Assembly: GCA_010692425.1 (NCBI GenBank)
Contig: JAAHHJ010000001.1
Coordinates: 62,001-126,000, forward strand
Direction of reading: 5' to 3'
From: Symploca sp. SIO3C6
Lineage (GTDB): Bacteria > Cyanobacteriota > Cyanobacteriia > Cyanobacteriales > Coleofasciculaceae
Length of the DNA stretch: 64,000 nt
Shown: piece by piece, positions 9,758-45,200 of the stretch
Position numbering within the stretch: position 1 is the stretch's first letter
Layout of the letters: each line of letters begins with the position of its first letter
Notes under the pieces: model-generated
Told to the model about the DNA's origin: nothing
Seen by the model: only the letters and a program-made list of their open reading frames with translations
Databases searched by the model: none
Position numbers and translations under genes: made by a program

Positions 9758-9758
9758 T

Positions 9759-11702: not shown

Positions 11703-11847
11703 ATCTTCTGATGTTGATTAACCACTGCTCCCCTGCAAAAGAGAGTGTGGCAGAGGAACAAAAATCGGGAAGTGTAGAAAGTCTGTGAGGAATCGGTATA
11801 CAAAAATCTTCCCTGTCTCCCCATCTCCCCCTCCTCTGTTTGTTTTA

Positions 11848-12084: not shown

Positions 12085-12241
12085 GATTAGTTAACAATTG
12101 CACCCATAACCTTATCAAAAACCAAAGAAGTGTAAATTTTCTTTTCTAATCTTAAAAAAGTCATTACCCGGAAGTTTAACGCATTTTTCCCCTGGTTATC
12201 TCTGTCTTTGTTAAATTGGTTCATCACTGAAAATCACTACA

Positions 12242-14371: not shown

Positions 14372-14404
14372 TAAGTAATAAGTAATAAGTAATAAGTAAT
14401 AAGT
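14359..14404 (+). repeat. Heptamer array (TAATAAG)n
   Basis: About six copies. The array encodes the C-terminal SNK and the stop codon of the oxidoreductase gene, exactly as at 9671. Confidence 0.92.
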
Positions 14405-14437
14405 GATAGGTACACTATATTACTTATTACTTTGGGT

Positions 14438-24819: not shown

Positions 24820-27729
24820 TTACAACCAGTTACCTACCAAAACAAAAGGAGCCCAATGATAAGGACGATGATAGTCAGTGTCTTGGTACTGAGTGAGGAA
24901 ACTTAATTGAACCTTGCGCAGTGCTTCAGCTTTAGTTAACTGCGAATTGTTGAGTTGTTTGTAGAATTTAATCATGAATTCGGCTGTGGAGACATCATCG
25001 ACATTCCATAAAGTTGCTAAGGTACTTCTTGCCCCGGCTCGGATAGCGATACCTGCCAGTCCTAAAGCTGCTCGTTTATCCCCAGTTGCCGTCTCACAAG
25101 CACTCAAAATTAGCAATTGGACAGGTAAATTTGAAGGATCACTAAACCTTAATAAGTTATCAAAATCTTTGACTTTAATGCGGCTATTCCAATCAAGAAT
25201 AAAAGTTTGCTCAGGATTAGAACTAAACTTACCGTGAGTGGCGATATGAACGATGTTAAAGGGGGCTAAATTAATTTGCCTTTTGAGGTTCTCTTGGAGA
25301 AATTCCTGATTTTCAAGAGTCTGACTTTGCTCTACCTGCTTAGCAACTCCTGACAATTCCACTTCGACGTTGTTTATTGGCCCTAAGCCTTCCTCTTGAA
25401 AACTGGGAGCGTCAGTTGCTCCAGCAACTAAGAGTTTGATCGTTTCTCGTGTTATTGGTTTAGGATCTAGTAGCTGCAAGCCAGGAGTGAGGGCAACAGC
25501 ATACCTTTCTACTAAATAATGCTTGCCGTCATAGAGTGAGGCTATCGGGACATTTCGCAAAGAACCATCTAAGACAAATATTAAAGTTTTAATCTGGCTA
25601 AATTCTCGCTCTAGACTCTGCTCCAGTTCTTTTTCAAAAGGTTTGATTAACCAGTTATAAAACTGTTGTGATTGTTTTTTTACTTCGCCAATGCTAGTAC
25701 TGCGTTTACTTAGAAAAGCCCTCAGTTGTTGAACTGCCCGATCCACTTGAGTTTGAGATACATTATGATTGCTATGGTGAAGTAATTGCTCTTTTCCTGG
25801 TAACTTGAGAACAACTTCTAAACGGTCTGCTAAAATAATCGGGTAAATTATTGCTGACTCCTGGTCTAAATCATCAATTCTGACTTCCTCTGGAGAAGCA
25901 CAGGCATCCCGAAAAAAGTTATCTAGTTCAGCTAGTTGGAGATTCTCAATAACATCGAGGGCTTGAGTTAAGTTATCTTGACTGGGAGAATGGGAGCGCA
26001 GCAGTAAATCAACTAACTGCCGATAGACAGGCTCTACGTTTTCTCGAAAGGAAAACTGGACTTCGGGATTAAGAGCTATCAAGTCACCGCGTAAATCATT
26101 GAGGATGTCTTTTGCAGCTGTATAATGAATCAGCGCTTCAGCATCAGCATCTTGAGTGTTAGTTTCTTGCTGAGCCTGAATTTGGAGAATTCTCCCCATC
26201 TGCCATTGCCACTGATAAGCAATATCAGCTGCCTTGATTTGCTGGGCAATTAGTATCGCCGACTGGGTAAAATCTTGAGCCTTTGACCAATCTTTGGTAC
26301 TTTCGTAGAACTTACCCAAAGTACCTAAAGTATAGGATTGAGCCTTTAGATCTTTTAGAGTGTCAGCTTGGGCAAGGGCGTTTTCCAAAATCTGAGTAAT
26401 TTCTTGGGAATTAGAGATCAAGGATAGGGAATTGTGGGTAGGATGTGATAATTTGTTGTCCCATACTTGGTCAACCTTAGATTGGAGGGGGAGAGGGGGA
26501 GAGGGGGAGAGGGGAGGATTGAATTGAAAGATATTCTGATACTCCCTCACTCTTAGACTATCATTGGGTCTAAAACCCCACTGTCTATACAGTGCAACAT
26601 TTTGGTTAGGCTTTAAATCCCCATCCCAACTATTCCCCCCCTCTGTTTCAAGAGAATTGAGAAATTCCACCCTGTTGCCGAGCGCCTCTACCTCAAGGTT
26701 GATCAGATGTTGAGCTAAATGAACCTGTGCATAGACGGAAGCTCGACTTTGAGGGACTTTGGCAAGGGATTGTTGAATTTGCGGCAACAAAGCTATAGCA
26801 GATTGATACTGACCATCCTCAATTAACATACTCAACTGATTCAACTGTGCTTGAGTGCGGCTGATGGCCGAGGTAGCTTTAGTCGTAGCATTTTGGTAAT
26901 GAGCTAAAGCCTGTTGGGTATACTGCTTACTCTGTTGAGTATTTCCTAAAATTTCTGCTCTTTTTGCTAAAACTTGGGAGTTATTGCCCAAACTGAGGAA
27001 AGCTTTACTTTCATCTGGAAGCATGCCCAATTGCTGTGCTATTGCTAAACTTTGCTCTAAAAGCTGATGGGAGCGCTCTAAATCTCCTAGCTGTCGGTGG
27101 AGATTACCGAGATTACGCAAGCCAGTTGCCTTGAGGTGAGAGTCTGGTTGTTTTTGAAGCTCATCTTCAACCTGAGTAAGTAATTGTTGCGCCCTGCGGT
27201 AAAGCCCCAAAGATTGCAGAGCTTCAGCTTGATTGACTTGAGTCCCAATCACACCGACAAAATCGTTAGCATTAGCATAGAGTTTTTCAGCTTCTTGCCA
27301 AGTTTCTAGGGCGCTTTCGGCTTTCCCCATCGCCAGTTGCAGATGCCCTTGAGAGTTGAGAATCTGGGCACTAACTTTTGCCCCAACTTTTGGCTGAGTA
27401 TTGAGTAAAGACTCACTAACCTTAATCGCCATCTCAGCCTGTTGCCACTGCCCCAGTTTTTGTTGAGACAAGGACATCAAACTCATTGCCTGGGCTTGCC
27501 CTGCTACATCTCCAATGACTTCATAAGCCTCTGCTGCCTGATGCAATAACTCCGATGCTTCTGAAAACTGCCCTGCATCGTAGTGTTGCTTACCTGCTTG
27601 GATCAGAGCCAAGCCAGAAACTTGAGTCTCACTCTCTGACAAAGTGATGGCTTGGGTTAGTGTGTGTATACCTAAACTTAACAATACACCCAAAGTCGCG
27701 ATCGCGATCAACTGAAACAGGTACTTCAT
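24820..27729 (-). CDS. Secreted TPR-CHAT domain protein
   Basis: 969 residues. A hydrophobic N-terminus (YLFQLIAIATLGVLLSLGI) predicts export. Residues ~40-570 are TPR repeats (LIQAGKQHYDAGQFSEASEL and many others). Residues ~680-969 are a CHAT domain, a caspase-like peptidase fold, with the dyad His832 (HIATHGKF) and Cys878 (LILSACETATGD) both present, so it may be an active protease. A proline-rich insert near residues 360-430 is made of repeat DNA. Part of the sigma/DUF1822 neighbourhood on the opposite strand. CHAT proteins act as stress or conflict effectors elsewhere; the extracytoplasmic location here is notable. Substrate unknown. Confidence 0.85.
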   Translation of the reverse strand: MKYLFQLIAIATLGVLLSLGIHTLTQAITLSESETQVSGLALIQAGKQHYDAGQFSEASELLHQAAEAYEVIGDVAGQAQAMSLMSLSQQKLGQWQQAEMAIKVSESLLNTQPKVGAKVSAQILNSQGHLQLAMGKAESALETWQEAEKLYANANDFVGVIGTQVNQAEALQSLGLYRRAQQLLTQVEDELQKQPDSHLKATGLRNLGNLHRQLGDLERSHQLLEQSLAIAQQLGMLPDESKAFLSLGNNSQVLAKRAEILGNTQQSKQYTQQALAHYQNATTKATSAISRTQAQLNQLSMLIEDGQYQSAIALLPQIQQSLAKVPQSRASVYAQVHLAQHLINLEVEALGNRVEFLNSLETEGGNSWDGDLKPNQNVALYRQWGFRPNDSLRVREYQNIFQFNPPLSPSPPLPLQSKVDQVWDNKLSHPTHNSLSLISNSQEITQILENALAQADTLKDLKAQSYTLGTLGKFYESTKDWSKAQDFTQSAILIAQQIKAADIAYQWQWQMGRILQIQAQQETNTQDADAEALIHYTAAKDILNDLRGDLIALNPEVQFSFRENVEPVYRQLVDLLLRSHSPSQDNLTQALDVIENLQLAELDNFFRDACASPEEVRIDDLDQESAIIYPIILADRLEVVLKLPGKEQLLHHSNHNVSQTQVDRAVQQLRAFLSKRSTSIGEVKKQSQQFYNWLIKPFEKELEQSLEREFSQIKTLIFVLDGSLRNVPIASLYDGKHYLVERYAVALTPGLQLLDPKPITRETIKLLVAGATDAPSFQEEGLGPINNVEVELSGVAKQVEQSQTLENQEFLQENLKRQINLAPFNIVHIATHGKFSSNPEQTFILDWNSRIKVKDFDNLLRFSDPSNLPVQLLILSACETATGDKRAALGLAGIAIRAGARSTLATLWNVDDVSTAEFMIKFYKQLNNSQLTKAEALRKVQLSFLTQYQDTDYHRPYHWAPFVLVGNWL
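26484..26517 (-). repeat. Octamer repeat inside the CHAT gene
   Basis: Four copies of an octamer GGGGGAGA (TCTCCCCC in the coding sense) encode the PPLSPSPPLPL linker of the TPR-CHAT protein. Confidence 0.8.
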
Positions 27730-28002: not shown

Positions 28003-29091
28003 CTATTTGCCCTTGACTTGAGATTTTGCTTGCTCCAGAGTAATTTCTTTTAAAGCTTGGTAGGAGTTGAAATTGGAAGCTCCTTCAATCGCCTTGACAG
28101 CTAAATCCTGAACTTGTTTAAGAGCAATATCCAGTTGTTGCGAGAGAGTTTGAATTCGCACTTCCTGATTTTGAATTGTCTGTTCTAGGGCTTGGATCCT
28201 CAGTTCATAGAATTGCTTGTTCCCTTCTATTTCTTTACTCTGTAAATCTGCCTTCACCTTTACTTGGTAGTTAGCAATTCCCTTACCTTCTTCCTTTGCC
28301 TTATTGATAGCGGCTTCCTTTTCCTTCTCGAAAGCTTCTACCTTAGCCTTCATTTCTGCAAATTCCTTCTCTTGCTGGGCAATTACCTGTTCCCTTTCAT
28401 GCCACTGTTTTTCTTGCCCTTGCTTAGCTTCTTCAAGTTCCCTGTATAAACGCTGCTGATTCTGTTGATATTGATCATTATTTAAGCTGCGTCTTAATAC
28501 CAAATCATATTCGTACTCTTGAGCATCCCGCTGGCGAGTTTTACTTTGCTCATCGTTCCTTGCTTTAATCAAGCGCTGATGTTCTTCTTGCTCCTTTTCC
28601 CAAACTTTTCTGGCTCTCTGAATATCTTGTCGCAGCACTTCTTGCCTTTGGTTGCTTTCTTCCTCAAAAGCTTTGGAGTTGTCTTCGTAGTCTTGGATTA
28701 AATTATCCAGAGTATCTTCTTGAATTTCTTCTAAACCATGTAGTTCTTGTAGTTGTTGAATTTCCTGATTCACAGAATGACCAAGTTCTTCCAGCTTCGC
28801 AGCTTCCGCAGTCAATTTCTCAGACAACTCACTAATAGAGCTACCAAAACCTGCTTGCAATTGGAGGAGAATATTAATCGTATCAATCATTTTGTCTTGA
28901 ACGACTTGCGGCAGTTTCATTCCTTTTATTGCTTCTGAAGATGTCGTTTCGGGAGTAACTGCTGCTTTGTCTTTCTTTGTTTTCTGAAGCTGCTTAAGTT
29001 CTGTCTCTAAAGCTTTACGTTCTGCCAGCAATTGATCGTAAGCTTCTAGAATCTGTGCTTTCGTCTGTTTATTACTAGGTTTACTTGTCAT
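28003..29091 (-). CDS. Coiled-coil protein 1
   Basis: 362 residues from Met at 29091 (the frame extends eight codons further to 29115). Almost entirely helical: two long charged coiled-coil stretches, roughly residues 10-45 and 145-340, separated by a less polar segment (VVQDKMIDTINILLQLQAGFGSSISELSEKL). High Glu, Gln and Lys; no membrane segment or enzyme motif. Paralogous to the next gene: both open with an xAxxQxLAxRK helix and end with LxxQLxxxLKQxQxLxxKAxExxSNxNS. Resembles cyanobacterial coiled-coil-rich filament-forming proteins in general, but no specific family is claimed. Divergent from the double kinase at 30697, a possible partner. Confidence 0.65.
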   Translation of the reverse strand: MTSKPSNKQTKAQILEAYDQLLAERKALETELKQLQKTKKDKAAVTPETTSSEAIKGMKLPQVVQDKMIDTINILLQLQAGFGSSISELSEKLTAEAAKLEELGHSVNQEIQQLQELHGLEEIQEDTLDNLIQDYEDNSKAFEEESNQRQEVLRQDIQRARKVWEKEQEEHQRLIKARNDEQSKTRQRDAQEYEYDLVLRRSLNNDQYQQNQQRLYRELEEAKQGQEKQWHEREQVIAQQEKEFAEMKAKVEAFEKEKEAAINKAKEEGKGIANYQVKVKADLQSKEIEGNKQFYELRIQALEQTIQNQEVRIQTLSQQLDIALKQVQDLAVKAIEGASNFNSYQALKEITLEQAKSQVKGK

Positions 29092-29135
29092 CAGTGTAGT
29101 CTTGATTATAATCAACTATAAACTGTTCATCGTTA

Positions 29136-29240
29136 ATTGTTGATTGTTCATGGGGCAAGTATTGCACAACTGCCCAATCTCAACCCTATGAACTATTAGC
29201 CCTGTTGGAACAGCATGGGCTTACCATGAACTATGAACCA
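29136..29240 (+). repeat. Dispersed ~85-bp repeat, degenerate copy 4
   Basis: TTGTTGATTGTTCAT, GGCAAGTATTGCACAACTGC and terminal ATGAACC units match copies 1-3 near 5.4-6.5 kb; an extra ~20 bases interrupt it. It separates the two coiled-coil genes. Confidence 0.6.
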
Positions 29241-29246
29241 TGAACC

Positions 29247-30248
29247 CTAATTTTTATTTCTGTCTTTTGAATTAATATTCGAGGAATTTTCAAACGCTTT
29301 TAAAGTCAGAGATTGCGACTGCTTGAGAGTATCTTGTAGTTGGTTATAAAGATTATCGATTTCTGTAGCGCGTTTTTGGATATTCTCCTCTAGAGACTGA
29401 ATTTTAAATTCATAACTGCGTTTTGTTGCTTCCCAGTCTTTCTCCAAAAGCTCAGCTTTTACTTTACCGTTTTGGTGTACTTCTTTAATTGCCTCTTCTC
29501 TAACTTTTTTAACTGCCTCATCCAATTGATTGGGAAAAGTTTCAATTGCCTGTTGATACTCTTCAAATAGAGCGTGGTTCTCGGCGATATTTTTTTCACG
29601 CTCAGCCCATTGTTTCTCTTTTTCCTGGTTTACAGTTTGTTGTTCTCTTTGTTGGTCGCGCTTGAATTCTTCATATTGGTCAGTTTCAATTTTTCGTTGA
29701 CGTTCTAATTCGTATTGATAGTCAGTTTCTTGAAGCTGTCGTTCTCTAATCAATAATTCGCTATCTTCCTGAACTTTACTCTCAAATTCTTCCTGTTCAA
29801 TCTCCCAAAGTTGATGTTTATGAACAATATCTTTCTCTAGTTCTTCCTGATATTGTGAGTAATTTTTATCCAGGATTTTAAGGTTTTCTTGATGTTCTTG
29901 AGTCAAAATATGTAGAGCATCAGCGACTATTATAATTTCCTGAAGTTCTTGCAAATGTTTAGTTTCAACATTAATTGCTAACTTCAATTCCTCCAGTTTA
30001 GAGACTTCTTCAGATAATTTTTTTGACAAGTCATTGACAACATTACCAAACTCTAGTTGTAAGTCTGCCAACCCTGTAACAATACTATTAACAGTATAGG
30101 TCGAGGCAACTTCAAGAACTTGCTGGTTTTTGGTTTTTTCAGCTTCTTGTTCTTTTGTTGCTATCTTAGAGTCAGTTTTTTTCCTGTCTGCAAGGATTTG
30201 CTCAAAAGCTTGAAAAATCTTTTGTTTGCTGTCTTCTCTGGCAACCAT
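29247..30248 (-). CDS. Coiled-coil protein 2
   Basis: 333 residues from Met at 30248 (MVAREDSKQKIFQAFEQILADRKKTDSK), parallel to the start of its neighbour; the frame continues to 30287. Predicted coiled coil over most of its length, with the same central segment (VNSIVTGLADLQLEFGNVVNDLSKKLSEEVSKLEEL) and the same C-terminal consensus as coiled-coil protein 1. Probably arose by tandem duplication and may form heteromeric filaments or a scaffold. No catalytic motif. Transcribed away from the double kinase through a ~400-base regulatory region. Confidence 0.65.
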   Translation of the reverse strand: MVAREDSKQKIFQAFEQILADRKKTDSKIATKEQEAEKTKNQQVLEVASTYTVNSIVTGLADLQLEFGNVVNDLSKKLSEEVSKLEELKLAINVETKHLQELQEIIIVADALHILTQEHQENLKILDKNYSQYQEELEKDIVHKHQLWEIEQEEFESKVQEDSELLIRERQLQETDYQYELERQRKIETDQYEEFKRDQQREQQTVNQEKEKQWAEREKNIAENHALFEEYQQAIETFPNQLDEAVKKVREEAIKEVHQNGKVKAELLEKDWEATKRSYEFKIQSLEENIQKRATEIDNLYNQLQDTLKQSQSLTLKAFENSSNINSKDRNKN

Positions 30249-30287
30249 GACTATTTTTATGATCTGGTAATGAACTACCTCGCCCAT

Positions 30288-30696
30288 ACTTAAGTCTGGA
30301 CTTCAAATGTGCTGCTCCACATTTGAAGGGATTTTCCCTATGTTTCCCCAAATTTTGCAATAAATTTAATTCAGTACTGCGATCGGAGCAAGCTTACAAA
30401 CAATCTATGCTGGTGAATCTCTCAACTCTAGTAAGCACGCAAGTATGGACGATAAATACTCTCTTTAAGAGCTAAAGCTTACACCCAGACAAGGGAATAC
30501 AGTATTATTTATAGAACAAATGTACTAGTAGAGTATAACCAATCCTCACTGTCAGTGTCAAACAAAAACCAGAAGTGAGGTCATAATTAAGTATACTGGC
30601 GTAATTCTACTTAAGTTTCCGGAAACTGCCCTCTAACCGTGGAATTAACTAGATATGAGATAGGTGTGCCCCGCAACTGCAGGAAAAGCCCTTGCC
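30288..30696. other. Divergent control region of coiled-coil and kinase genes
   Basis: About 400 AT-rich bases without a gene. It holds a perfect 14-bp palindrome at 30614 and several TATAAC/TATACT-like hexamers (for example near 30534), suitable for divergent promoters. The GTG at 30664 could add eleven residues to the kinase, but the ATG at 30697 is the better start. Confidence 0.45.
30614..30627. promoter_or_regulatory. Perfect palindrome AGTTTCCGGAAACT
   Basis: A 14-bp perfect inverted repeat 70 bases before the kinase ATG, in the divergent region. Its size and symmetry suit a dimeric repressor or activator site. No regulator can be named. Confidence 0.4.
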
Positions 30697-33600
30697 ATGT
30701 CAAATCGAATAGGTATGCGATGGAAGCTTGGAGATATAATCCTCGACTTATACAAAGTAACCGATATCCTCGGTGAGGGTGGATTTGGCGAAGTCTACAA
30801 AGTAAGACACCAAAGCTGGAATATTGACTTAGCCGTTAAAAGCCCAAGGCCAGAAACTGTAGCTGCAGCCGGAGGTGTGGAGAATTTTGAGCGCGAGGCA
30901 GAAACCTGGGTAAACCTAGGTCTATACCCTCATATTGTGAGCTGTTACTATGTGCGGCGTGTTGACAATACCCCCCTAGTATTCGCCGAATATATGGCGG
31001 GAGGAAGTTTACACGACTGGATTAGTAATCGCCGACTGTATGAGGGCGGTGCGAGAGCATCCCTCAAGCGCATTCTCGATTTTGCCATCCAGTTTGCTTG
31101 GGGATTGCATCATGCTCACGAGCAGGGTTTAATACACCAGGATGTCAAACCAGCCAATGCGATGTTGACTCCTGAGGGTGTAGTCAAAGTAACAGATTTC
31201 GGTCTAGCCCACGCTCAGGTACCCTCCGAGATTATAACCTCCTCGGAGTTAGGGGGAGCTAGTATCGAAGAACACACCCTGATCACCGCAGGCAGTGGTG
31301 GCATGACACAAGGCTATTGTTCTCCAGAACAAGCAAGGCAAGAAACTCTCACCAAACGCACTGATTTGTGGAGTTGGGGACTTTCAGTTCTAGAAATGTT
31401 CCAGGGGGAGCGCACCTGGAAATCTGGTATCCTCGCAGCTCAAGCCCTGGAGAGTTATCTACAGACAGCCTCAGTAGAATCTGTGGGTACTGTCGAGATG
31501 CCCACACCTGTAGCTCAATTACTACAACGCTGCTTTCAGGAAAACCAAGAGTATCGCCCCCGCAATTTGCAGTTAGTGGCTCAGGAGCTACAGCAGATTT
31601 ACCAGCAGTTGCTGGGGGAAGCTTACCCGCGTCGAGAACCAAATCTAGCTAAAGATACAGCCGACAGCCTCAACAACCGGGCAGTGTCACTTTTGGACTT
31701 AGGCAGGGAGGATGAAGCCTTACAGTTGTGGGAGATAGCTCTCTCCTCAGAGCCACAACATCCCGAATCAACTTACAACCGGGGCTTAATTGAGTGGCGA
31801 AAAGGCAACAGCAGTGATGACCGCATTTTGCTCAGAGAGCTCGAAGCCAGTCGCGCCCATACCAAGGATTGGAAGATTGACTATCTTCTGAGTTTAGTAC
31901 ATCTAGAGCGAGATGATTGTCCACAAGCAATCAAGATCCTTGAAGCTATTCAGGGAGAGGGTACTGAATTCGAGGAAGTCAAGGCAGCATTGAAATTGGC
32001 AACAGGACGTTTGTCCAATAGCAAACGATTAGTGCCTAGCTTTCAAAGTAAAATCTATTGCGATACCAACTCAGTTTGTCTGAGTCTAGATGGCAGCTAT
32101 ATTCTCTCCGGCGGCAATGACAAAACTCTGAAGTTGTGGGAAGTGGCTACAGGAAAATGCCTGCACAGCTTTGAGGGGCATGCAGATGCTGTACAATCAG
32201 TCTGTCTGAGTCCAGATGAACGCTACGCCCTCTCTGGAAGTCGCGATCAGACCCTAAAATTGTGGGAGGTAGCGACAGGAAAATGTCTACATACCTTTGA
32301 GGGGCATGGAGATTTTGTACAGGCAGTTTGTTTTAGCCCAGATGGTCGTTATGCCTTTTCCGGTAGTGATGACCAGACGATGAAGCTCTGGGAAATAGCT
32401 ACAGGTAATTGTTTACACACCTTTAAGGGCTATCGAGGTAGAGTCTCTTCGATCTCGATGAGTGCCAATGGTCGCTATGTCCTCTCTGGAGGCCCTAAAG
32501 ACCCAATGAAGCTGTGGGAAGTGGCTACAGGTTTAGCAGTACAGACTTTTGAAGGAGACACAGATTATGTTACCTCAGTTTGTCTGAGTTCAGATGGTCG
32601 CTATGTCCTCTCTGGAGACCAAAGCCTGAAGTTGTGGGAAGTGGCTACAGGCAAATGTCTGCGCACTTTTGAAGGACACAAACACTGGGTAAAATCTGTC
32701 TGTCTAAGTCCGGATGGTTGCTATGCCCTGTCTGGGGGTGATGATAAAACCATTAAGCTGTGGGAAGTAGCTACAGGTCGCTGTTTACGTACTTTTGAAG
32801 GGCATAGATTCTGGATCAAATCCCTCTATCTGACACCAGATGCTCGCTATGCCCTCTCCGGAGACTCGGAGATGATTAAGCTGTGGAGAGTCAATGGCAC
32901 TAGTAAGCCCTATTTAGCACCACTGACATTGTCGCGGGTACTGGCAACAGAAACAATAATCTCCATTGATCTAATTTATGAGCGAGAATTAGCACAAGCG
33001 CGAGTTGCTCAAGAGCAAGGTAATATCATCGCCGCCGCCAACCACATCCGGAAAGCGCGAGCGCAGCCTGGATATAGTCGAAACCCCGAAGCTGTCAGCG
33101 CCTGGACTAGCCTCTATGCCTGTCTGCCTCGTCAGGCATTCAATGGCGGTTGGGAATGTGCCACCTGGGAAGGACACAAAAACTTTGTCTACTCAATATG
33201 TATGAGTAAAGATGGTCGCTATGCCCTTTCTGCTGGCAAGACCTTAAAAATGTGGAAGGTTGCTAAAGGTCGCTGTCTTGCTACTTTTAATACGAATACA
33301 GGTTATGTTACCTCGCTGTGCATGAACCAAGATGGTAATTATGCCCTTTCCGGAAGCACTGACAAAACCCTGAAGCTATGGGAGGTAGATACCGGTTTGG
33401 CAGTGCGCACTTTTAAGGGACACAAAGATTGTGTCTATTCTGTCTGTTTTAATCCTAATGACCGCTATGCCCTCTCCGGAAGTCGCGATCAAACCCTAAA
33501 GTTATGGGAGGTTAGCACGGGCCGCTGTTTACGAACCTTTAAGGGACACAGAGATTGGGTAAACTCAGTTTGTATAAGTCCCAATGGTCTCTATGCCCTC

Positions 33601-35862
33601 TCTGGAAGTACTGACAAGACTTTGAAGCTATGGCAATTAGCCATTGGTTGCTGCTTGGATACTTTTAGGGGTCATAAAGGTAGAGTATATTCAGTCTGTT
33701 ATAGTCCAGATGGTCGCTATGCTTTGTCTGGGAGCGATGACCGGACTCTGAAGCTATGGGAAATAGCTACAGGTGACTGCCTGCGTACCTTTGAAGGACA
33801 CACAGGTTATGTCAGTTCAGTTTGTTTCAGTGGGGATGGTTGCTATGCTCTGTCTGGAAGCGATGACCAAACTATCAAGTTATGGGAAGTCGCCACAGGT
33901 AAGTGCCTGCGTACCTTTGAGGGACATACAGCTACAGTGCAGGAAGTTTGTTTTAGCCCGGATGGTACCTATGCCCTCTCCGGAAGTACTGACAAAACTT
34001 GCAAGCTATGGGTTTTGGACTGGGAATTGGAAGATAGAGCCTCTGCTGATTGGGATGAGGGTGCTAGAGTTTATCTAGAAACTTTCTTATCCTTACATAA
34101 GCCTGCCCTTGCTACCCTGCCAGATAACCGCGAACCTGATCAAGCCGAAGTTACCTCCGCTCTGAGCCGCCAAGGCACTCCCAGTTGGACTGAAGTAGAC
34201 TTCAACAACTTGATGTACACTCTCAGTTGTGCCGGTTATGGCTGGCTGCAACACTCAAGAGTGCGTCAACAGTTGCAGGCAATGATTCACACTCAAGCGC
34301 CAACTCGGTTTGAACAACAGGGAGAAGGGGAAACGCAAATCGAACAATTACAGGAGATATCTGAAGTTCGTCCTAATTCTCCACTATTTTCTGTTAACCC
34401 AAATCCTCCTCAGGAATTAGCTAAAGTAATCCTTACTGTGACTGCAGGCAGCCTCAAAGGACAGGAATTTGAATTTAGCGATCGCACTACCTGTATTATT
34501 GGTCGTGCTAATGACTGCTACCTACAACTACCTAATGACGAACATCATAAAACCATCTCCCGCTATCACTGTCTACTTGACATTAGTCCTCCAGCAATTC
34601 GGGTGCGGGATCTTGGCAGTCTCCACGGTACCTACGTCAACGGTAAAATAATTGGGCAGCGCCAATCCTTCCAAACTCCTGAAGAAGGGGCTCAAATTCA
34701 TTTCCCAGAATATGACCTCAGTCAAGGGGATGAAATTAAGCTGGGTAAAACTGTATTTCGAGTCAATATTGAAGGAGACAATTTTGAGGAAGCAACCCCA
34801 AACAGCTTTATAGAAAGACCAGTGGAAGCAACTGCTATCCTGGAAAAAAATAATAATTCTCCCTCTCCCCAGTCTATCTTGGGTAACTCTTCGAGTTATA
34901 TCGATTCTCCAGCACCGACTCCCCTATTCCATCCTGAAGCTTCCACTCTACAGGAAGCAGCTGTGCAAGAAAGAGCAGCTGATCCCGGTTTTCCCAGTTT
35001 CGAGGGTTACACCACACTCCAACTTTTAGGTAAAGGAGGAGGAGGTCAAGTGTATTTGGCGTGCAATAATCAGACGCAGGAGTTAGTAGCGATCAAGGTT
35101 ATGCTGCCGAGGATGGCTGTCAATCAGCATGCCATTGAAATGTTTCTGCGGGAGGTGGAAAATACTAAAGCCTTGCAGCATATCAATGTAGTGCAATTGC
35201 TGGATTACGGCTATTCTGGGGGCCGCTTTTTCTTCACTATGGAATATTGTGAAGGTGGCAATGTTGCTGATTTAATGAATCAAAGAGGTGGGCGATTGTC
35301 TATTGATGAGGCAGTACCAATTATTCTACAGGCTTTAGACGGTTTGGAATACGCCCACAAAGCTGAGATTCCCTATGTCAAATTGGCTAATGCTACTTTT
35401 GGTAAGGGCAGGGGTTTGGTACACCGTGACTTCAAGCCCTCTAATATTTTTTTGACCAATGTTCATGGTTCTCGTCTGGTTAAAGTTGCTGATTATGGGT
35501 TAGCAAAGTCCTTTGACCAAGCTGGTTTAAGTGGTCTGTCGATGAGTGGTAAGATGTCGGGGACACCGTTATTTATGCCCAGGCAACAGGCGATTAATTT
35601 TAAGTATGCTAAGCCGGAGGTAGATGTCTGGGCGGCTGCTGCTTCTCTGTATAATATGTTAACTGGTGAATATCCCCGAGACTTCACTGGCAAGGAGCCG
35701 TTTTTAGTATTGTTGCAAACAGATGCGGTGCCAATTCGTCGACGAGATGCTTCTATTCCTAAGGAGCTAGCGGAGTTAATTGATTTGGCACTAGTTGATA
35801 AGCCTCAGATTCATTTTAAAAACGCTGTTGCCTTCAAGCGTGCCTTAGAAAGTGTAGTTTGA
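30697..35862 (+). CDS. Double Ser/Thr kinase with TPR, 14 WD40 repeats and FHA
   Basis: 1721 residues. Kinase 1 (~12-290): GEGGFGEVY, Lys48, HQDVKPAN with Asp149, DFG 167-169. TPR-like region ~320-445. Then two blocks of seven WD40 repeats each (~448-735 and ~820-1114), consensus SPDGRYALSGSxDxTLKLWE, enough for two seven-bladed propellers, split by a helical linker (RELAQARVAQEQGNIIAAANHIRKA). FHA ~1242-1320 with GRAND, ISRYHC and LHGTYVNG intact for phosphothreonine binding. Kinase 2 (~1436-1721): GKGGGGQVY, Lys1467, HRDFKPSN with Asp1578, and DYG instead of DFG. Both kinases look competent. No membrane segment. Kinase, propeller and FHA modules are common singly; all together with two kinases is rare. 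A one-base overlap leads into the next gene. Confidence 0.85.
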   Translation: MSNRIGMRWKLGDIILDLYKVTDILGEGGFGEVYKVRHQSWNIDLAVKSPRPETVAAAGGVENFEREAETWVNLGLYPHIVSCYYVRRVDNTPLVFAEYMAGGSLHDWISNRRLYEGGARASLKRILDFAIQFAWGLHHAHEQGLIHQDVKPANAMLTPEGVVKVTDFGLAHAQVPSEIITSSELGGASIEEHTLITAGSGGMTQGYCSPEQARQETLTKRTDLWSWGLSVLEMFQGERTWKSGILAAQALESYLQTASVESVGTVEMPTPVAQLLQRCFQENQEYRPRNLQLVAQELQQIYQQLLGEAYPRREPNLAKDTADSLNNRAVSLLDLGREDEALQLWEIALSSEPQHPESTYNRGLIEWRKGNSSDDRILLRELEASRAHTKDWKIDYLLSLVHLERDDCPQAIKILEAIQGEGTEFEEVKAALKLATGRLSNSKRLVPSFQSKIYCDTNSVCLSLDGSYILSGGNDKTLKLWEVATGKCLHSFEGHADAVQSVCLSPDERYALSGSRDQTLKLWEVATGKCLHTFEGHGDFVQAVCFSPDGRYAFSGSDDQTMKLWEIATGNCLHTFKGYRGRVSSISMSANGRYVLSGGPKDPMKLWEVATGLAVQTFEGDTDYVTSVCLSSDGRYVLSGDQSLKLWEVATGKCLRTFEGHKHWVKSVCLSPDGCYALSGGDDKTIKLWEVATGRCLRTFEGHRFWIKSLYLTPDARYALSGDSEMIKLWRVNGTSKPYLAPLTLSRVLATETIISIDLIYERELAQARVAQEQGNIIAAANHIRKARAQPGYSRNPEAVSAWTSLYACLPRQAFNGGWECATWEGHKNFVYSICMSKDGRYALSAGKTLKMWKVAKGRCLATFNTNTGYVTSLCMNQDGNYALSGSTDKTLKLWEVDTGLAVRTFKGHKDCVYSVCFNPNDRYALSGSRDQTLKLWEVSTGRCLRTFKGHRDWVNSVCISPNGLYALSGSTDKTLKLWQLAIGCCLDTFRGHKGRVYSVCYSPDGRYALSGSDDRTLKLWEIATGDCLRTFEGHTGYVSSVCFSGDGCYALSGSDDQTIKLWEVATGKCLRTFEGHTATVQEVCFSPDGTYALSGSTDKTCKLWVLDWELEDRASADWDEGARVYLETFLSLHKPALATLPDNREPDQAEVTSALSRQGTPSWTEVDFNNLMYTLSCAGYGWLQHSRVRQQLQAMIHTQAPTRFEQQGEGETQIEQLQEISEVRPNSPLFSVNPNPPQELAKVILTVTAGSLKGQEFEFSDRTTCIIGRANDCYLQLPNDEHHKTISRYHCLLDISPPAIRVRDLGSLHGTYVNGKIIGQRQSFQTPEEGAQIHFPEYDLSQGDEIKLGKTVFRVNIEGDNFEEATPNSFIERPVEATAILEKNNNSPSPQSILGNSSSYIDSPAPTPLFHPEASTLQEAAVQERAADPGFPSFEGYTTLQLLGKGGGGQVYLACNNQTQELVAIKVMLPRMAVNQHAIEMFLREVENTKALQHINVVQLLDYGYSGGRFFFTMEYCEGGNVADLMNQRGGRLSIDEAVPIILQALDGLEYAHKAEIPYVKLANATFGKGRGLVHRDFKPSNIFLTNVHGSRLVKVADYGLAKSFDQAGLSGLSMSGKMSGTPLFMPRQQAINFKYAKPEVDVWAAAASLYNMLTGEYPRDFTGKEPFLVLLQTDAVPIRRRDASIPKELAELIDLALVDKPQIHFKNAVAFKRALESVV

Positions 35863-36478: not shown

Positions 36479-37618
36479 ATGCTTGATACTTTTTTAGCCA
36501 CCATTGTTATCAATACCAAATGGCAAGTTGTCCTCTTGGGATTGTCGGGAATATCCATTTTCAGCGGTATTCTTGCCCTACCTAAAGTCATGGTTTCTCT
36601 ACTAGAGCATTTAATTTCAGAACAAATGCGTCTAGCTTACCAAAAGGTACTTAAACCTGACCAAAATTTAGTCTATTTAGTCAGTATTTTAGCTGGCATT
36701 GATGTGGTTTTCTGGCTGACTCCTAAAACCAATTTAATTCAGCTGCTCGAATTCCTAATCAGTCTGTCTTTAGGAATTACCATTACTTGGCTATTTTCCA
36801 GAGCTTTTAAAAGATTCTTCGATGACTATTTGCTGGATGCCAGCATCAAAACTGGGCGTAAAATTAATAGTGAACTACTAGTTCTGGCCAAACTCTTAGC
36901 TAATGCTCTAATTGTTGTAATCACAGTCATTGTTTTTGCACAAACTCATAGCCTAAATATCTTTGGTCTATTTGCTAGTTTGGGTGTTAGTGGTATAGCT
37001 GTTGCTTTTGCTGCTCAAAAGACTTTAGAACAGTTGCTTGGAGGTATTGTTATTTACATTGATCGTCCCTTTGTTGTTGACGATTACATTGGTTTGCCAG
37101 ATGGCACCTTTGGCAGGGTTGAGTCAATTGGCTTGCGTTCCACTAAAATCCGCTCCTCGGGTAAAGGTACTCTCTTTGTTGTTCCTAATAATGCTCTCAA
37201 TCAGGTGACAATTGAAAACTTTACAGGCGCTAAAAAAGTGATTTCGATCATTTACTTGGTATTTTATCGCGCTATTCCTGAACAAGAAAAGGCTCTCATC
37301 CGTCAAGTAATTCTCGAATGTACCCAGGATATCTTCGGCATTGATCATCGTAGTACACAGGTACAGTTTACTGACTGCACGACTCAAAGCAGTAACCTTA
37401 GTAATGGCAATGGTAAAGGCATCCAAAATCAACAACAAGCTATTACTCAAGCTCAAATCAATTTTTTCATTCTCGGTTCTGGAGAAACTTCTCTAGATTT
37501 ACGCTGCCAGTTATTAGATATCGCCAAACAAAATATCACTCAGCAATTAAAAGCATACGGTATTGCTTTTGATATCGAAGACCAAACCATCAATGTTGAC
37601 TCACCAATCACTATCTAG
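36479..37618 (+). CDS. MscS family mechanosensitive channel, copy 1
   Basis: 379 residues. Three or more N-terminal membrane spans (~15-38, ~65-85, ~90-112, ~135-158) lead to the pore-lining helix and beta domain: LFASLGVSGIAVAFAAQKTLEQLLGGIVIYIDRPF (~160-195), then DYIGLPDGTFGRVESIGLRSTKIR, the classical MscS core. Small-conductance channels open under membrane tension and release solutes on hypo-osmotic shock. Paralogous to the next gene, which starts three bases after the stop. The preceding ~290 bases contain the inverted repeat at 36190 and no gene. Confidence 0.87.
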   Translation: MLDTFLATIVINTKWQVVLLGLSGISIFSGILALPKVMVSLLEHLISEQMRLAYQKVLKPDQNLVYLVSILAGIDVVFWLTPKTNLIQLLEFLISLSLGITITWLFSRAFKRFFDDYLLDASIKTGRKINSELLVLAKLLANALIVVITVIVFAQTHSLNIFGLFASLGVSGIAVAFAAQKTLEQLLGGIVIYIDRPFVVDDYIGLPDGTFGRVESIGLRSTKIRSSGKGTLFVVPNNALNQVTIENFTGAKKVISIIYLVFYRAIPEQEKALIRQVILECTQDIFGIDHRSTQVQFTDCTTQSSNLSNGNGKGIQNQQQAITQAQINFFILGSGETSLDLRCQLLDIAKQNITQQLKAYGIAFDIEDQTINVDSPITI

Positions 37619-37621
37619 TCG

Positions 37622-38758
37622 ATGAATTTAACAGAATTTAAAAATAGCATCGGTTATCTGTACCAAACTCTATACTCTTCAAGCATTCCTAACTATGTAA
37701 TTTTCCTGGGTTTTGTTTTTTTATCAATTCTAATTGGACGATATACTCCTGGTTTGATCAGTTTCATAATCAAGCGCTTCGCACCGCAGCAGGGCAAGAC
37801 AATTTATGAGGAGCTTGTTAGTCCGATTCAAAAAGAATTTCAAGTAGCTGGCACTCTCGTCTTAATTGCTTCATCTTTGGTATGGTTGCAGGATTATCAA
37901 GGGGCATATAACTTTATTAAACCTTTGGTATATTTGGCAGTGACAATTAGCATTGCCTGGTTAGTATCTCGCTTGTTCCGACAACTACTTCGTGTTTATG
38001 GAATTGAGTTGATTCAAAAGCTCGGTCTAGAAATTGATGAATTATTGTTAGTGGTTGAAACTTTAGGTAATGTCATTATTGGTTTTATTGCTGCGATCGC
38101 TTTTGCTCAAAGCCAGCAAATTAATCTAGTTGGTTTGCTGACTAGTTTAGGAATTGGGGGTATAGCGATCGCTTTTGCTGCTCAAAAAACTCTGGAACAA
38201 CTGTTGGGAACAATTGTGCTGTATTTAGATCGTCCCTTTATTCAAGGAGAGTATATTCGCGTTAGTTTGAACCCTCATTCTGATGATGTATTTGGCAGAG
38301 TAGAATCAATTGGTTTACGCTCAACTAAACTACGCACAGCAGCTAAAAGTACCCTCGTAATTGTACCGAATTCAATTATGGCTAATTTAGATATCGAGAA
38401 TATTACCAGGGGTAAAAAGGTAATGGTCTTACTTTATCTAGATTTTCACCAATTTTTAGAAGAGCGCGAGCGAGCTTTAGTAGAGCAAATAATTAAGGAA
38501 AGTACAGATGCTTTGTTTGGTATTGATCCAGGCAGTACTACAATTCACCTATTTGAACCTGAAGGTAACTCACACCAGACAGTAACTCGCGCCCGAGTAA
38601 CATTTTTTATCTTGGGCTCCTCAGAAAATTCAATTCAACTGCGCAAGCGCTTGTTAGAGTTAGCTAATGAAAAAATGTCCAAGGAATTGATAACTTACGG
38701 TATAAACTTTACCATGCAAGACCCCACAGTTTATGTTGATTCTCCTGTGACTGTGTGA
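37622..38758 (+). CDS. MscS family mechanosensitive channel, copy 2
   Basis: 378 residues with the same architecture as its neighbour: N-terminal spans, then LLTSLGIGGIAIAFAAQKTLEQLLGTIVLYLDRPF and DVFGRVESIGLRSTKLR. C-terminal domains of both end similarly (YGINFTMQDPTVYVDSPVTV here, YGIAFDIEDQTINVDSPITI there), confirming tandem duplication. The genes are separated by three bases and must be co-transcribed; the two proteins may form mixed heptamers. Ends at a TAATAAG array. Confidence 0.87.
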   Translation: MNLTEFKNSIGYLYQTLYSSSIPNYVIFLGFVFLSILIGRYTPGLISFIIKRFAPQQGKTIYEELVSPIQKEFQVAGTLVLIASSLVWLQDYQGAYNFIKPLVYLAVTISIAWLVSRLFRQLLRVYGIELIQKLGLEIDELLLVVETLGNVIIGFIAAIAFAQSQQINLVGLLTSLGIGGIAIAFAAQKTLEQLLGTIVLYLDRPFIQGEYIRVSLNPHSDDVFGRVESIGLRSTKLRTAAKSTLVIVPNSIMANLDIENITRGKKVMVLLYLDFHQFLEERERALVEQIIKESTDALFGIDPGSTTIHLFEPEGNSHQTVTRARVTFFILGSSENSIQLRKRLLELANEKMSKELITYGINFTMQDPTVYVDSPVTV

Positions 38759-39297: not shown

Positions 39298-42200
39298 ATG
39301 GGTGTTATTCCCGGCTACCAAAATCTCCACCTTATATATAACAGCACTCATTCATTAGTCTATCGAGGACAGCGAGAGGACAATCATCAACCTGTTATCC
39401 TCAAAATTCTCAAGCCAGACTATCCTCAGCCCCATGAAATTGCCCGATATAAGCAGGAATATGAAATCGGCCGCTCTGTGAGTATAGATGGTGTTGTTAA
39501 AGCCTATAGTTTAGAGAAATATCGGAACACTATAGTCATGGTTTTGGAGGATTTTGGCGGACAATCTTTAAAGATATTGCTGAATGAGCGTAAGTTTAAC
39601 CTCAGAGAAGTCCTTACTCTTGCCATTCGCATTACTGAAATTCTGGGTGAGATTCACAATTCAAACGTGATTCACAAAGATATTAATCCCTCCAATATCG
39701 TTTTCAATCCAGAAACCGGGCAGCTAAAAATCATCGACTTTGGTATTGCTACTGTCTTGTCTTGCGAAAATCCTACTATCAAAAATCCTAATGCTCTCGA
39801 AGGTACTTTAGCCTATATGTCGCCGGAACAAACTGGCAGGATGAACCATTCCTTAGACTACCGTACTGACTTTTACTCCTTAGGCGTCACCTTCTATGAA
39901 TTACTAACTAATCAACTGCCTTTTACTACCAAAGATGCAATGGAATTGTTGCATTGTCATCTTGCTCAACAGCCAGTGCCTCCAGATCAAATCAAAAGTG
40001 AGAGTGGCAATAAAAGCAGAGAAAATTGCCCCAAGGCGGTTGCGGATATTGTACTCAAACTGATGGCGAAAACGGCTGAGGAGCGATACCAAAGTGCCTG
40101 GGGCATTAAAGCAGATTTAGAAGCCTGTTTGACTCAGTTACAGACTAATGGTGAGATTATAAGTTTTCCCCTCGCTCGTCACGATCTTGCTAATAAATTT
40201 CAAGTTTTTCAAAAACTCTATGGCAGGGAGCAAGAAATTAAAGCTTTATTGATAGCATTTGAGCGCGTTAGTCAAGGTCAAAGTGAGATGATGCTAGTTT
40301 CCGGTTATTCTGGTATTGGTAAGTCATCTTTGGTAGCTGAAGTTCATAAACCCATTACTCAAAAGCAGGGTTATTTCATTTCTGGAAAATTTGACCAGTA
40401 TCAGCGCAATATTCCCTACTCTGCCCTAGTGAATGCCTTTTCTTCCCTAGTGCGGCAACTATTAACAGAAACTACAGCACAACTGAGTAAGTGGCGAGAA
40501 CAACTCCTAGTAGCTTTGGGTGCCAACGGGCAGGTAATTATTGATGTGATTCCGGAAGTGGAACTGATTATCGGTGTTCAGCCTACCGTTACTAAATTAG
40601 GCCCAGCTGAGTCGCAAAATCGCTTTAAATTAGTTTTTCAAAACTTCATGCGGGTGTTTTGTCAAAGGGAGCATCCACTGGTCGTTTTTTTAGACGATTT
40701 GCAATGGGTTGACTCTGCCACACTCAAGTTGATGGAGTTGGTAATTACAGATGAAGATACCCAATACCTATTGCTGATTGGTGCTTATCGAGATAACGAA
40801 GTTAATGAGACACATCCGTTAATAATTACTCTTGAGAGAATACGCTCTCAAGTAGTAGCACTAGGCAAGAGGAGCCTCAACCAAATTACCTTATTACCTT
40901 TATCACTAGAGCATATCACCCAGCTGATTGCTGATACTCTACACAGCGATACCGAATTGGTAAAACCCTTGGCAGAGTTAGTGGTGTCTAAAACTGAAGG
41001 CAATCCCTTTTTTGTCAATCAATTTCTTCACAGCTTATACCAAGAAAATCTGCTCATTTTTACACCTCCTCAATCTGGCTCTCAAGGTGGTTGGCAATGG
41101 AATATCGCTCAAATTGAGGCAGTAGACATCACCGACAATGTGGTCGAGTTGATGATTAGCAAGTTGAAGAAACTGCCAGTAATTACGCAGCAAGTTTTAC
41201 AATTAGCAGCTTGTGTGGGTAACAGTTTCGATTTAAACACCCTCTCTATCATTCATGAAAAGTCGGCTTCTGAAACTTTTCAATATTTAGTAGAGGGAGT
41301 ACTATCAGGATTAATTATAACCACTTTCGAGCCAGAATTTACTGATACGGATATAGTTGATTCTCCTCCGTTAATTCTCAATTACCAATTTCTCCATGAC
41401 CGAGTACAGCAAGCTGCTTATTCTCTGATTTCAGATCATCATAAACAAGCAGTTCATCTACAAATTGGTCGTCTGATGCTGTCTAATATTAATAAAGCAG
41501 AAAGGCAAGAAAAGATTTTTGAAATTGTCAATCATTTAAACATGGGAGCTGAGTTAATCAGCAGTCAATTTGAACGAAATGAACTGGCTCATCTGAATTG
41601 GATTGCAGGACATAAAGCTAAGCTTGCTACTGCTTATATTGATGCTCTCAGATATTTAAATGTAGGGCGAGAATTTTTGGGTAAAGATGGCTGGAATCGA
41701 AACTATGAATTAACACTAAAAATTTATATAGAAACAGTAGAAGTTGCTTATTTAAACACTAATTTTGAACTAGCACAGCAGATAGCTGAGGTGGTTTTAA
41801 CCAGAGCTAATACTCTGCTCAATAAGATAGATATTTATAAAATTAAAATCCTGTTTTATGGCGCTCAAAACCAAATGCAAGCAGCTATAAATACTGGCAT
41901 GGAAGTCTTGGAATTGTTAGAAGTATCTCTGTCCCAGTCACCGCCTCAAGATCTGATTATTGAAGAACTCTACAACTTGCCAGTAATGAGTAATCCCTAT
42001 AAACAGGCAGCAATGCGGATCTTGATGATGCTGTTTGCTTCTGTTTATATTAGCGATCCTCCAAAATTGCCGCTCATTTCCTTCACTATGGTCGATCTGT
42101 GCGTCAAATATGGCAATTCTCCCTTGGCTGCTTACGCCTATGGTTTGTACGGCTTACTCTTGTGTGGAGTACTTGCAGACATCGAGTCAGGATATCAATT

Positions 42201-45200
42201 TGGCAAACTGGCGTTGAGGGTTTTAGATAAATTTGATGCTAGAGAAATAAAATGCAGAGTATACAACAAATTTAACTCTTTTATACGCCATTGGAAAGAA
42301 CCTGTCAGAAACACATTAGAACCTTTGCGTGAGACAATTCAAATCGGTCTAGAGACTGGAGAAATAGAATTTGCTAGTTATGCTGCTGTTAACTACTGTG
42401 CCAACTTATTCTTGAGTGGAGAAAACCTCGAAACTATTCATCAACAGCACAGGCAATATCTAGACTTAATTCAGAGTCTTAAACAGGAATTTCAGCTCTA
42501 CTACGCTCGGATTTGGGGGCAGTTAGTGCTGAATTTAAGTAGTAAAACAACAGATGAACAAAGGTTACTGGGGGAGTTTTTCAATGAAAATGAAAATCTC
42601 TCAATCTTGAGAAAAAATAATAATCTTAGCTCTCTATATTGTTTCTATCTTGCTAAAACTATTCTCGCTTATCTGTTTAAAAATTATACTCAAGCTGTTG
42701 CCCACGGAGCTTTAGCAGAAAAATACGCACCAGGTTTAGTGGGGCTGTTGCCTTTTGCCCAAAATCCTTTCTACTATTCTCTAGCTTTGCTGGCTTTGTA
42801 TCCCACGGCCCAAGAGAGCAAGCAAAGAGAATATCTGGAGTTAGTGGCAAGCAATCAGAAAAAAATGAAAACTTGGACAGAGCATGCTCCAATGAATTTT
42901 CAGCACAAATATGAGTTAGTAGAAGCAGAAAAAGCGCGTATCTTGGGGCAAAATGACCAAGCAATAGATTATTATCAGCGAGCTATACAAGGTGCCCAAA
43001 ACCAGGGATATGTCCAAGAAGAGGCATTAGCTAATGAATTGGCAGCAGAATTCTGGTTAGAACAAGGTCAAGTAAAATATGCCCAACTCCACATCAAAGA
43101 AGCTTGCTATGGATACCGTCTTTGGGGTGCAACAAGCAAGGTGGAAGATTTGGAGAATCAATATCCGCAATTGCTTGACTCAAAACTAAGGAAAATACCT
43201 ATAACTGTCACCACGACTTCTACAAATAGCAGGCTCTCAGAGGGTCTAGATTTAGCAACAGTTGCAGCCGCAGCACAGGCTATTTCTTCTGAAATTATTC
43301 TCAAAAAACTGGTGAGTAAACTGATGAAGATTATGCTTGAAAATGCTGGTGCTCAATCTGGTTTTCTTATTCTCAAACGTCGAGATAAATTATTAATTGC
43401 AGCAGGTGCTGGAGCATTAATTACTGATAAAACTAAAAATGAGGATGAGCAGCTCTGGTCATCACAACCCATTGAAATCAGCCAACAATTATTACCGGTT
43501 TCGTTGATCAATTATGTGGCTAGAACTCAGGAAAACCTTGTATTCAACAATGCTGCCAATGAAATTCAAAATCTGAAATCCAAAATTCAAAATCATGATG
43601 ACCCCTACATCCTAGAGCATCAACCAAAATCAGTTTTGTGCGCGCCGATCCTCAATCAGGGTAAACTGATTGGTATCATTTACTTAGAAAACAATCTAAC
43701 TGTTGGTGCCTTTAGTCGCGATCGCCTCGAAGTTATAAACATTCTCTGTTCTCAAGCTGCAATTTCCTTAGAAAATTCGCTACTCTATGAGCAGCTAGAG
43801 AACTATTCGCAAGCTCTGGAGCAGAAAAAATTAGCTGCCGAAACTGCTAACCGTGCCAAAAGCCAATTCCTGGCTAACATGAGTCACGAACTCAGAACCC
43901 CACTAAACGCTATTCTAGGTTTTACACAACTACTCAAACGTGAGCAAGGATTAAATCAACAGCAACAGGAAAAGCTGGGAGTGATTAGCCGCAGTGGCGA
44001 ACATTTACTATCTCTAATTAATGACGTATTGGCAATTTCTAAAATCGAAGCCAAGCAAGTTAGCTTGCAGGAGGTTAGTTTCGATTTGTATCGTCTACTC
44101 GATAGTTTATCAAACATGTTTGAACTACCAACAGTAGACAAAGGTTTAGAGTTGATTTTAGACCCAGCTCCAGACTTACCTCAATATATTAAGACCGATG
44201 AGAGTAAACTGCGTCAAGTTTTAATCAATTTACTGGGCAACGCCATTAAATTTACTCAACAGGGTAGTGTTACCTTGCGGGTGAGAGTGGGTAGGAATGA
44301 TCTTGTGCAGAGGAAGCAAGGGAAGCAGGAAAGTTCTCAATCTCTCTACTTCGAGGTAGAAGATACTGGTTCTGGGATTGCACCATCAGAACTTTACACT
44401 TTGTTTGAACCCTTTGTGCAAGCGAAAAGTGGACAGAAATTGCAAGAAGGAACTGGTCTCGGTTTGCCTATTAGCCAAGAATTTGTCCGCCTGCTGGGTG
44501 GGGCTCTCGCTGTCAGCAGTACTCTGGGTAAAGGCTCAATTTTTAAGTTTAATATACTAGTTAGTCTGGTTGAGGCAGATGACATTAAGAGGCAATCTTC
44601 AAGCAGACGGGTTGAAGCCTTAGCTCCATCGCAACCCCAATATCGCATTCTGGTGGTAGAGGATCAATGGGCAAATCGCCAATTGCTAATCCAGCTACTA
44701 ACACCATTGGGGTTTGAGGTACGAGAAGCGGCAAATGGTCAAGAGGCAATTAGCCTATGGGAGAAGTGGGAACCGCAACTGATTTTTATGGATATGCGGA
44801 TGCCAGTGATGGATGGGTATGAAGCCACCAAACGAATTAAAGCTATGACCAAAGGTCAAGCAACGGCAATAATTGCGCTGACGGCGAGTGCCTTTGAGGA
44901 AGACAGAGGGGTAGTGCTATCAGCAGGTTGTGACGACTTTATCCGCAAGCCCTTTCAGGAGGAGGTGATTTTTGAAAAGCTGGCTGAGCACCTAGGAGTA
45001 CGCTATATTTATGATGAGTCTATGCAGCTTGCCCCAGCAGAGTTGGAAACTCCTAGACAAGAGCTGGTCTTGACCCCACAAGCTCTGGCAACAATGCCTG
45101 CTGAATGGGTTAGGCAACTACAACAAGCCGCGACACAACTCAATGCCAAGTTAATTTCGGAACTCATAGAGCAAATTCCTCAGGAAAATGCTCCTCTGAG

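Follow-up and report, generated by a model that had tools for sequence, protein, structure and literature searches.

What can a single protein do with a Ser/Thr kinase domain at either end and a phosphothreonine-reading FHA domain in between? The question is raised by a gene of the cyanobacterium Symploca sp. SIO3C6 (assembly GCA_010692425.1), located on a stretch of 64,000 nucleotides (nt) of contig JAAHHJ010000001.1 (positions 62,001 to 126,000) that we refer to as the window. From N- to C-terminus the product reads kinase 1, TPR, WD40 propeller, linker (LK1), second WD40 propeller, helical domain (LK2), FHA and kinase 2. Pfam confirmed the anatomy put forward in the original prediction, a reading of the DNA letters: two kinases, 14 WD40 stretches (grouped as 7 + 7 blades in two blocks), an FHA domain whose segment position lies between the propellers and kinase 2, and TPRs, of which a single TPR_16 match was above the cut-off and the other TPR models were below it.

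Our best single guess, with a probability of roughly 0.42, is that the Symploca protein would be a kinase-FHA-kinase switch, with residue T1390 as the first candidate ligand, set in a cytosolic hub encoded by fused genes. In such a two-kinase signalling hub, a sensor kinase (kinase 1-TPR-propeller-LK1-propeller-LK2) would be fused to an FHA-kinase. The TPR and propeller part would collect an input partner. Kinase 1, kinase 2 or a second chain would phosphorylate a threonine (T1390 first, T205 as second candidate), whose phosphorylated state the FHA would hold, thereby setting kinase 2 for output. Here we infer which kinase phosphorylates what, as well as the FHA ligand, the input and the output.

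Judging from their residues, both kinases are probably active in the Symploca genus, and they would cooperate on one chain. The earlier claim that each keeps its catalytic Lys and Asp was borne out by a motif table, which added the DFG or DYG Asp. Kinase 1 carries K59, E78, HQD (D160), DFG (D178), the activation-loop T205 and SPEQ; kinase 2 carries K1478, E1497, HRD (D1589) and DYG (D1610), with MPRQQ replacing APE. The beta-3 Lys, alpha-C Glu, HxD Asp and DxG Asp that define Hanks-type kinases are thus present in both. The FHA phosphothreonine-site residues (GR, SR, H, GT and N) are likewise all present, with the phosphothreonine-binding R1281, S1299 and N1326 intact. The highest 19-residue Kyte-Doolittle mean of the protein was 1.19; since no stretch is sufficiently hydrophobic, no membrane segment is expected and the protein is probably cytosolic.

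Kinase 1, FHA and kinase 2 are under purifying selection within the genus. Symploca sp. SIO2E9 (JAAHGS010000131.1) encodes a version of 1733 amino acids (aa), at 91% over the C-terminal 618 aa. The ratio of non-synonymous to synonymous substitution rates (dN/dS) between the two was 0.109 overall; by part it was 0.20 for kinase 1, 0.041 for kinase 2 and 0.023 for the FHA, with 0.30 for the FHA-kinase 2 linker. The fusion is not an assembly artefact, because this same-genus homologue carries it, at low dN/dS, and other full fusions were found.

Full fusions and the state of their kinases

The original prediction had treated the double-kinase architecture with FHA as a novelty. This did not hold: searches of genome samples met the same layout in a single uninterrupted open reading frame (ORF) in 14 genomes, the window's included. 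All counts of the fusion and its parts are lower bounds, drawn from samples. A sample of the order (388 genomes) yielded five full fusions in two genera (the window genome, G000; SIO2E9, G001; G520, G419 and G432). Uniqueness was then overturned by a search with LK2 in a sample of the class: of 388 genomes, 16 gave a match at E ≤ 1e-10, the window's own among them, and nine more fusions appeared in one family, f25. These f25 proteins measure 1631–1715 aa and represent eight genera (G776, G800, G805, G786, G824, G732, G752, G810 and G756). The full fusions thus fall in three groups: the Symploca genus, g169 and f25. Other loci are partial. Two more in f25 (G833, G872) contain an interruption or are truncated at contig ends; two (G766, G795) stop after the FHA, and the fetched sequence downstream gave no kinase-2 match; in G844 the parts lie in separate ORFs, followed by PP2C; and the fetched stretch of G144 has LK2 but neither the FHA nor the kinase-2 half. 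A phylum search with the kinase 1-TPR part, in which scoring was limited to the four top first-look candidates of each genome, matched 3 of 386 genomes at E ≤ 1e-60. No kinase-WD40-FHA-kinase protein was met in the titles and abstract starts of the literature searched, in which subscription journals are poorly covered.

Kinases were scored as intact on three hard criteria: the Lys, the catalytic Asp and the DFG Asp. Of 13 distinct full fusions, 10 had at least one disabled kinase, and in seven both were disabled. All six residues were kept only in the two Symploca proteins and in G776, which nonetheless has Ile for the Asn of kinase 1 and Ala for the alpha-C Glu of kinase 2. Unfused kinase 1 was intact in 7/7, a set that includes G525, whose downstream stretch is unknown, and G457, an intact copy with no FHA-kinase in the stretch fetched. 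Kinase 2 was intact in 55/60 unfused versus 6/15 fused proteins, with G027 and G453 counted among the fused; by a five-residue criterion the figures were 53/60 and 4/15. Fisher tests of decay against fusion gave p = 5.8e-6 and 5.1e-5 without correction for relatedness. On the tree the contrast amounts to a single independent pair; if, as may be, the fusion occurred once, the decay contrast is a single phylogenetic event and these p values are not independent tests. Kinase 1 was also decayed in four of five ankyrin-type relatives that have no FHA-kinase, so decay is not tied to FHA-kinase fusion alone. All eight FHA residues checked were complete in 72 of 75 family rows; of the other three, one had no FHA domain and two were changed at one position.

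The DYG of kinase 2, previously called an oddity, proved to be the family norm in fused and unfused proteins. The exact motif occurs in 49/60 unfused and 11/15 fused kinase 2 domains, and Tyr stands at the middle of DxG in 51/60 and 15/15.

A relay from kinase 1 through the FHA to kinase 2, as originally proposed, is possible in Symploca, where all residues are intact; it fails as a general mechanism of the family, because at least one kinase has lost its Lys or Asp in most fusions while the FHA stays. In much of the family, the residues argue for a chain that reads phosphothreonine rather than relays phosphate. The alternative that survives best, possible if somewhat doubtful as an account of the whole, goes further: the FHA and propellers would form a scaffold gathering proteins phosphorylated by others, the kinase domains would be mainly structural or allosteric, and Symploca would merely retain activity. 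FHA conservation, the disabled kinases (both in seven fusions, one in three more) and the two f25 proteins that end after the FHA are all in its favour. Against it, both catalytic sets are complete in Symploca, and the dN/dS of kinase 2 there would be unexpected were catalysis dispensable.

The analysis also considered a single-chain bacterial kinase cascade seen at different stages, derived from a neighbouring gene pair fused perhaps once in cyanobacteria, which we regard as rather unlikely. It would combine a T1390-FHA-kinase 2 switch in Symploca with an externally driven pseudokinase phospho-switch in the sister lineages, which keep the FHA and often the linker Thr while one or both kinases have turned into pseudokinases.

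The preferred kinase-FHA-kinase switch points to a specific residue. T1390, in the predicted disordered linker behind the FHA, is a candidate built-in ligand by its motif. T[AS][IL] occurs in this linker in 8 of 15 fused proteins (G000, G001, G800, G805, G824, G732, G810, G756) and in 1 of 60 unfused ones. When the letters of the fused linkers were shuffled, the mean was 1.25 and 0 of 5000 shuffles reached eight. A looser motif (T, then one of ASGCTF, then one of ILV) was found in 9/15 and 4/60. The linker is variable in length and sequence across the family. By eye, D-Q-T-x-hydrophobic motifs stand beside T[AS][IL] in several f25 proteins, and the tails of the two proteins that end after the FHA finish in similar Thr motifs. 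Because the motif was chosen after viewing the alignment and the rows are related, the result is a lead only. T205 of the kinase 1 activation loop is the second candidate ligand; 7 of the 9 kinase-1 rows whose residues are complete retain the Thr-Leu/Met motif there. An AlphaFold2 model of residues 1115–1732 (mean predicted local distance difference test score, pLDDT, 79.5) was confident for the LK2 bundle, the FHA and kinase 2, with the linker disordered (pLDDT < 50 at residues 1375–1431).

Several points weigh against the switch. T[AS][IL] is missing from 7 of the 15 fused linkers. The proteins that do carry it often have dead kinases, and the phosphorylation may then be the work of another protein. 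The disordered linker of the model gives no information on docking. In G007, a genome in which the two halves are neighbouring genes, kinase 2 has no FHA. Finally, one or both kinases of most fused relatives have lost catalytic residues and the FHA is kept, so much of the family can do without kinase activity, with the FHA perhaps reading partners.

Neighbouring kinase genes and the origin of the fusion

The fusion looks like the product of two neighbouring genes, one for a sensor kinase and one for an FHA-kinase, judging by relatives in which the parts are separate. In the order sample, 95 of 388 genomes had a match to the FHA-kinase half at E ≤ 1e-60, usually in ORFs of about 450–500 aa, and 14 of 388 had one to the kinase-1 domain at E ≤ 1e-45. 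The two halves are consecutive genes on the same strand in G280 (100 nt apart) and G007 (36 nt). On plasmid p057_E of Nostoc sp. C057, WP_179076175.1 is followed after 27 nt by WP_179076174.1. This pair resembles the window protein in placing kinase 1-TPR-WD40-LK1-WD40-LK2 beside FHA-kinase 2, both with complete catalytic residues; it differs in consisting of two genes, in a reduced first propeller and in extra C-terminal TPR-like repeats of WP_179076175.1, seen by eye. In G468 the kinase-1 gene is interrupted, with an FHA-kinase about 2 kb further downstream, and in G421 the halves are at the ends of two contigs, their adjacency being an inference. Other combinations exist: G027 and G453 encode a propeller-LK2-FHA-kinase 2 protein without kinase 1, and in G448, G428, G509, G439 and G517 ankyrin repeats stand in place of FHA-kinase 2.

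In the ankyrin variant (L072, L074, L076, L077 and L078), the repeats are joined to kinase 1-TPR-WD40, and the catalytic Asp of kinase 1 is lost in four of the five. Kinase 1-TPR-WD40 proteins also occur on Streptomyces plasmids (L131, L133), at about 45% identity in kinase 1; no FHA-kinase neighbour was present in the two stretches shown.

The fusion of the gene pair may have happened once. In a quick tree, the 15 fused FHA-kinase domains fell on one side of a branch with an SH-like approximate likelihood ratio test (SH-aLRT) value of 94. An earlier, careful tree of 30 rows held the six fused rows then known together with support of only 67/48. The kinase-1 tree scatters the fused rows, yet a single clade was not rejected by the approximately unbiased test (p-AU 0.447).

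The pairing of a kinase with an FHA-kinase also extends beyond this family. We sampled 40 loci with an FHA-kinase gene, roughly one for each genus although some genera recur, irrespective of their neighbours; one was dropped as its own gene was interrupted. Among the 29 loci with at least 4 kb upstream, 16 have another Ser/Thr kinase ORF on the same strand in those 4 kb and one has it on the opposite strand, as judged with a profile built partly from kinases near other FHA-kinases; two of the 16 matches are 137-aa fragments (L167, L174). At the 24 loci with 4 kb on both sides, the counts were 14 same-strand versus 1 opposite upstream and 4 versus 1 downstream. By eye, many upstream same-strand kinases at L140–L179 start with a W-x-x-x-Q-like motif.

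The two kinases are probably linked in function, because they are encoded by neighbouring genes elsewhere, are fused here, and an upstream kinase recurs at these 16 of 29 loci; the gene-pair origin makes their cooperation likely, as far as gene linkage can indicate. The same evidence bears on another alternative, that two independent kinases share one scaffold, the fusion fixing only stoichiometry and location, with no mutual phosphorylation. The two kinase families are only distantly alike (about 22–32% identity in cross-matches), hence there was no recent internal duplication, and the G007 kinase 2 without FHA would also suit independence. The recurrent neighbourhood and fusion, and an upstream kinase arrangement reaching beyond the fusion family, make it clearly unlikely.

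Clp-N/AAA-type genes adjoin kinase 1 in G007, G280, G525 and a Lachnospiraceae locus. Clp_N exceeded the Pfam cut-off only in the G280 protein and in a Clp_N-kinase fusion of G525. A dedicated Clp-N/AAA partner was considered and rejected for the window system: the G007 protein matches ORFs of the window genome (827–909 aa) only over the AAA part, and such a gene is therefore not counted.

Known systems with two kinases or an FHA

Actinobacterial PknB with GarA/OdhI or FhaA resembles the proposed switch in that a kinase-phosphorylated threonine is read by an FHA. In GarA/OdhI, the Thr motif beside the FHA is an internal ligand and lies N-terminal to it. These are separate proteins, whereas in the single window protein the Thr motif is C-terminal to the FHA. 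The kinase 2 model was closest to the kinases of Stk1, PknA and PknB, and the sequence scored below the cut-off for Stk1/PknB PASTA kinases (NF033483; 287.8 versus 450 bits). FHA reading of a pseudokinase, MviN, is described for FhaA-MviN (PMC12599244).

A survey of 21 cyanobacterial genomes lists cbSTKII kinases with WD40 and others with FHA, on different proteins; the parts covered name no protein with two Ser/Thr kinases, and the 'dual protein kinases' there are Ser/Thr plus His kinases (PMC2176072). In the KKP (kinase-kinase-phosphatase) module (PfkA, PfkB, PfpC), two Hanks-type kinases cooperate and one of them bears an FHA; appreciable phosphorylation of targets and of the kinases themselves required both, so such kinase pairs can depend on each other (PMC11341870). 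The double-kinase protein differs in being one chain, in its TPR and propellers, and in the FHA, which precedes kinase 2 and lies far beyond kinase 1, past the propellers; no phosphatase gene was seen nearby. The cold-shock domain of PfkA was not among the best 25 of 56 Pfam matches of the ORF, nor among the listed Pfam matches of six non-propeller segments. A phosphorylation-based defence or toxin module of the KKP type is very improbable here: the two-kinase logic with FHA, the mobilizable Nostoc plasmid, the PP2C gene adjoining an FHA-kinase in G844 and in a Lachnospiraceae metagenome-assembled genome (MAG) and generic PADLOC kinase matches (PD-T4-6, MAD6) speak for it, but there is no PP2C gene among the 14 surrounding window ORFs scanned (the next ORFs on both sides included), no cold-shock domain in the matches just given, the same PADLOC models match the HstK-type neighbour described below, and a fusion in nine genomes and eight genera of f25 is more like a retained regulator. 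For MAD6 (methylation-associated defence kinase, NF047741) the score was 196.8 bits, below the curated cut-off of 460.

The two PP2C loci are as follows. At L046 (Lachnospiraceae MAG, 354–14605), an FHA-kinase is directly followed by PP2C, with a kinase-TPR-WD40 gene of interrupted frame nearby, and the stretch ends with a Clp-like double AAA+ gene. At L196 (G844, 181–5726), the FHA-kinase is split over two ORFs and directly followed by PP2C, with a WD40-LK2 gene nearby.

Gene layout and surroundings

Coordinates of the gene and its parts are collected below. The ATG is in-frame codon 12 of the ORF; it is a likelier start than the GTG because relatives begin close to it, the Nostoc protein starting MPSNFAQWNVGD.

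Features of the double-kinase gene, in window positions
Feature	Position	Strand	Description
Whole ORF	30664..35862	+	1732 aa from GTG; 1721 aa from ATG at 30697
Kinase 1	30751..31584	+	Pfam PF00069, residues 30-307, E 3.3e-38
TPR stretch	31678..31845	+	one TPR_16 match (PF13432), about residues 339-394, E 8e-9
WD40 propeller 1	32071..32898	+	seven blades, about residues 470-745
LK1, inter-propeller linker	32899..33177	+	93 residues, family-conserved, no Pfam match of its own
WD40 propeller 2	33178..34017	+	seven blades, about residues 838-1118
LK2, unnamed helical domain	34018..34293	+	after propeller 2 in fused and unfused relatives (alignment)
FHA domain	34414..34767	+	PF00498, about residues 1278-1336, E 1.4e-16
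FHA-kinase 2 linker	34768..34995	+	mostly predicted disordered; candidate FHA site T1390 (T-A-I-L), codon at 34831
Kinase 2	35008..35859	+	PF00069, residues 1449-1673, E 2.2e-38

LK2 is, as modelled, a conserved helical domain without a Pfam family. AlphaFold2 gave four helices when it was modelled alone (pLDDT 82), a structure search with this model returned no PDB match below E = 1, and a scan of the segments of the window protein returned no Pfam match for it. Its GYGWL motif is invariant across ten aligned rows.

Downstream of the double-kinase gene, two tandem mechanosensitive-channel-like genes (MS_channel_2nd) occupy 36479–38758 (+). An HstK-type dual protein kinase of 1992 aa (Pkinase, AAA_16, GAF, HisKA, HATPase, receiver) follows at 39298–46430, overlapping a receiver-histidine kinase gene by a few bases. 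On the other side, at 28003–30287 (−), two adjacent same-strand ORFs of 370 and 346 aa are divergent from the double-kinase gene; by eye they are coiled-coil-like and similar in layout, and neither had a Pfam match above the cut-off. A TPR-CHAT protein is encoded beyond them (24820–27729).

The analysis points to a specific threonine as a candidate FHA ligand and describes a conserved domain, LK2, that has no Pfam match. The same parts occur today in split, fused-intact and fused-decayed form, so the question of relay versus scaffold for an FHA between two kinases can be tested by comparison. The results also suggest that the cyanobacterial FHA-kinase is often partnered by a kinase encoded just upstream.
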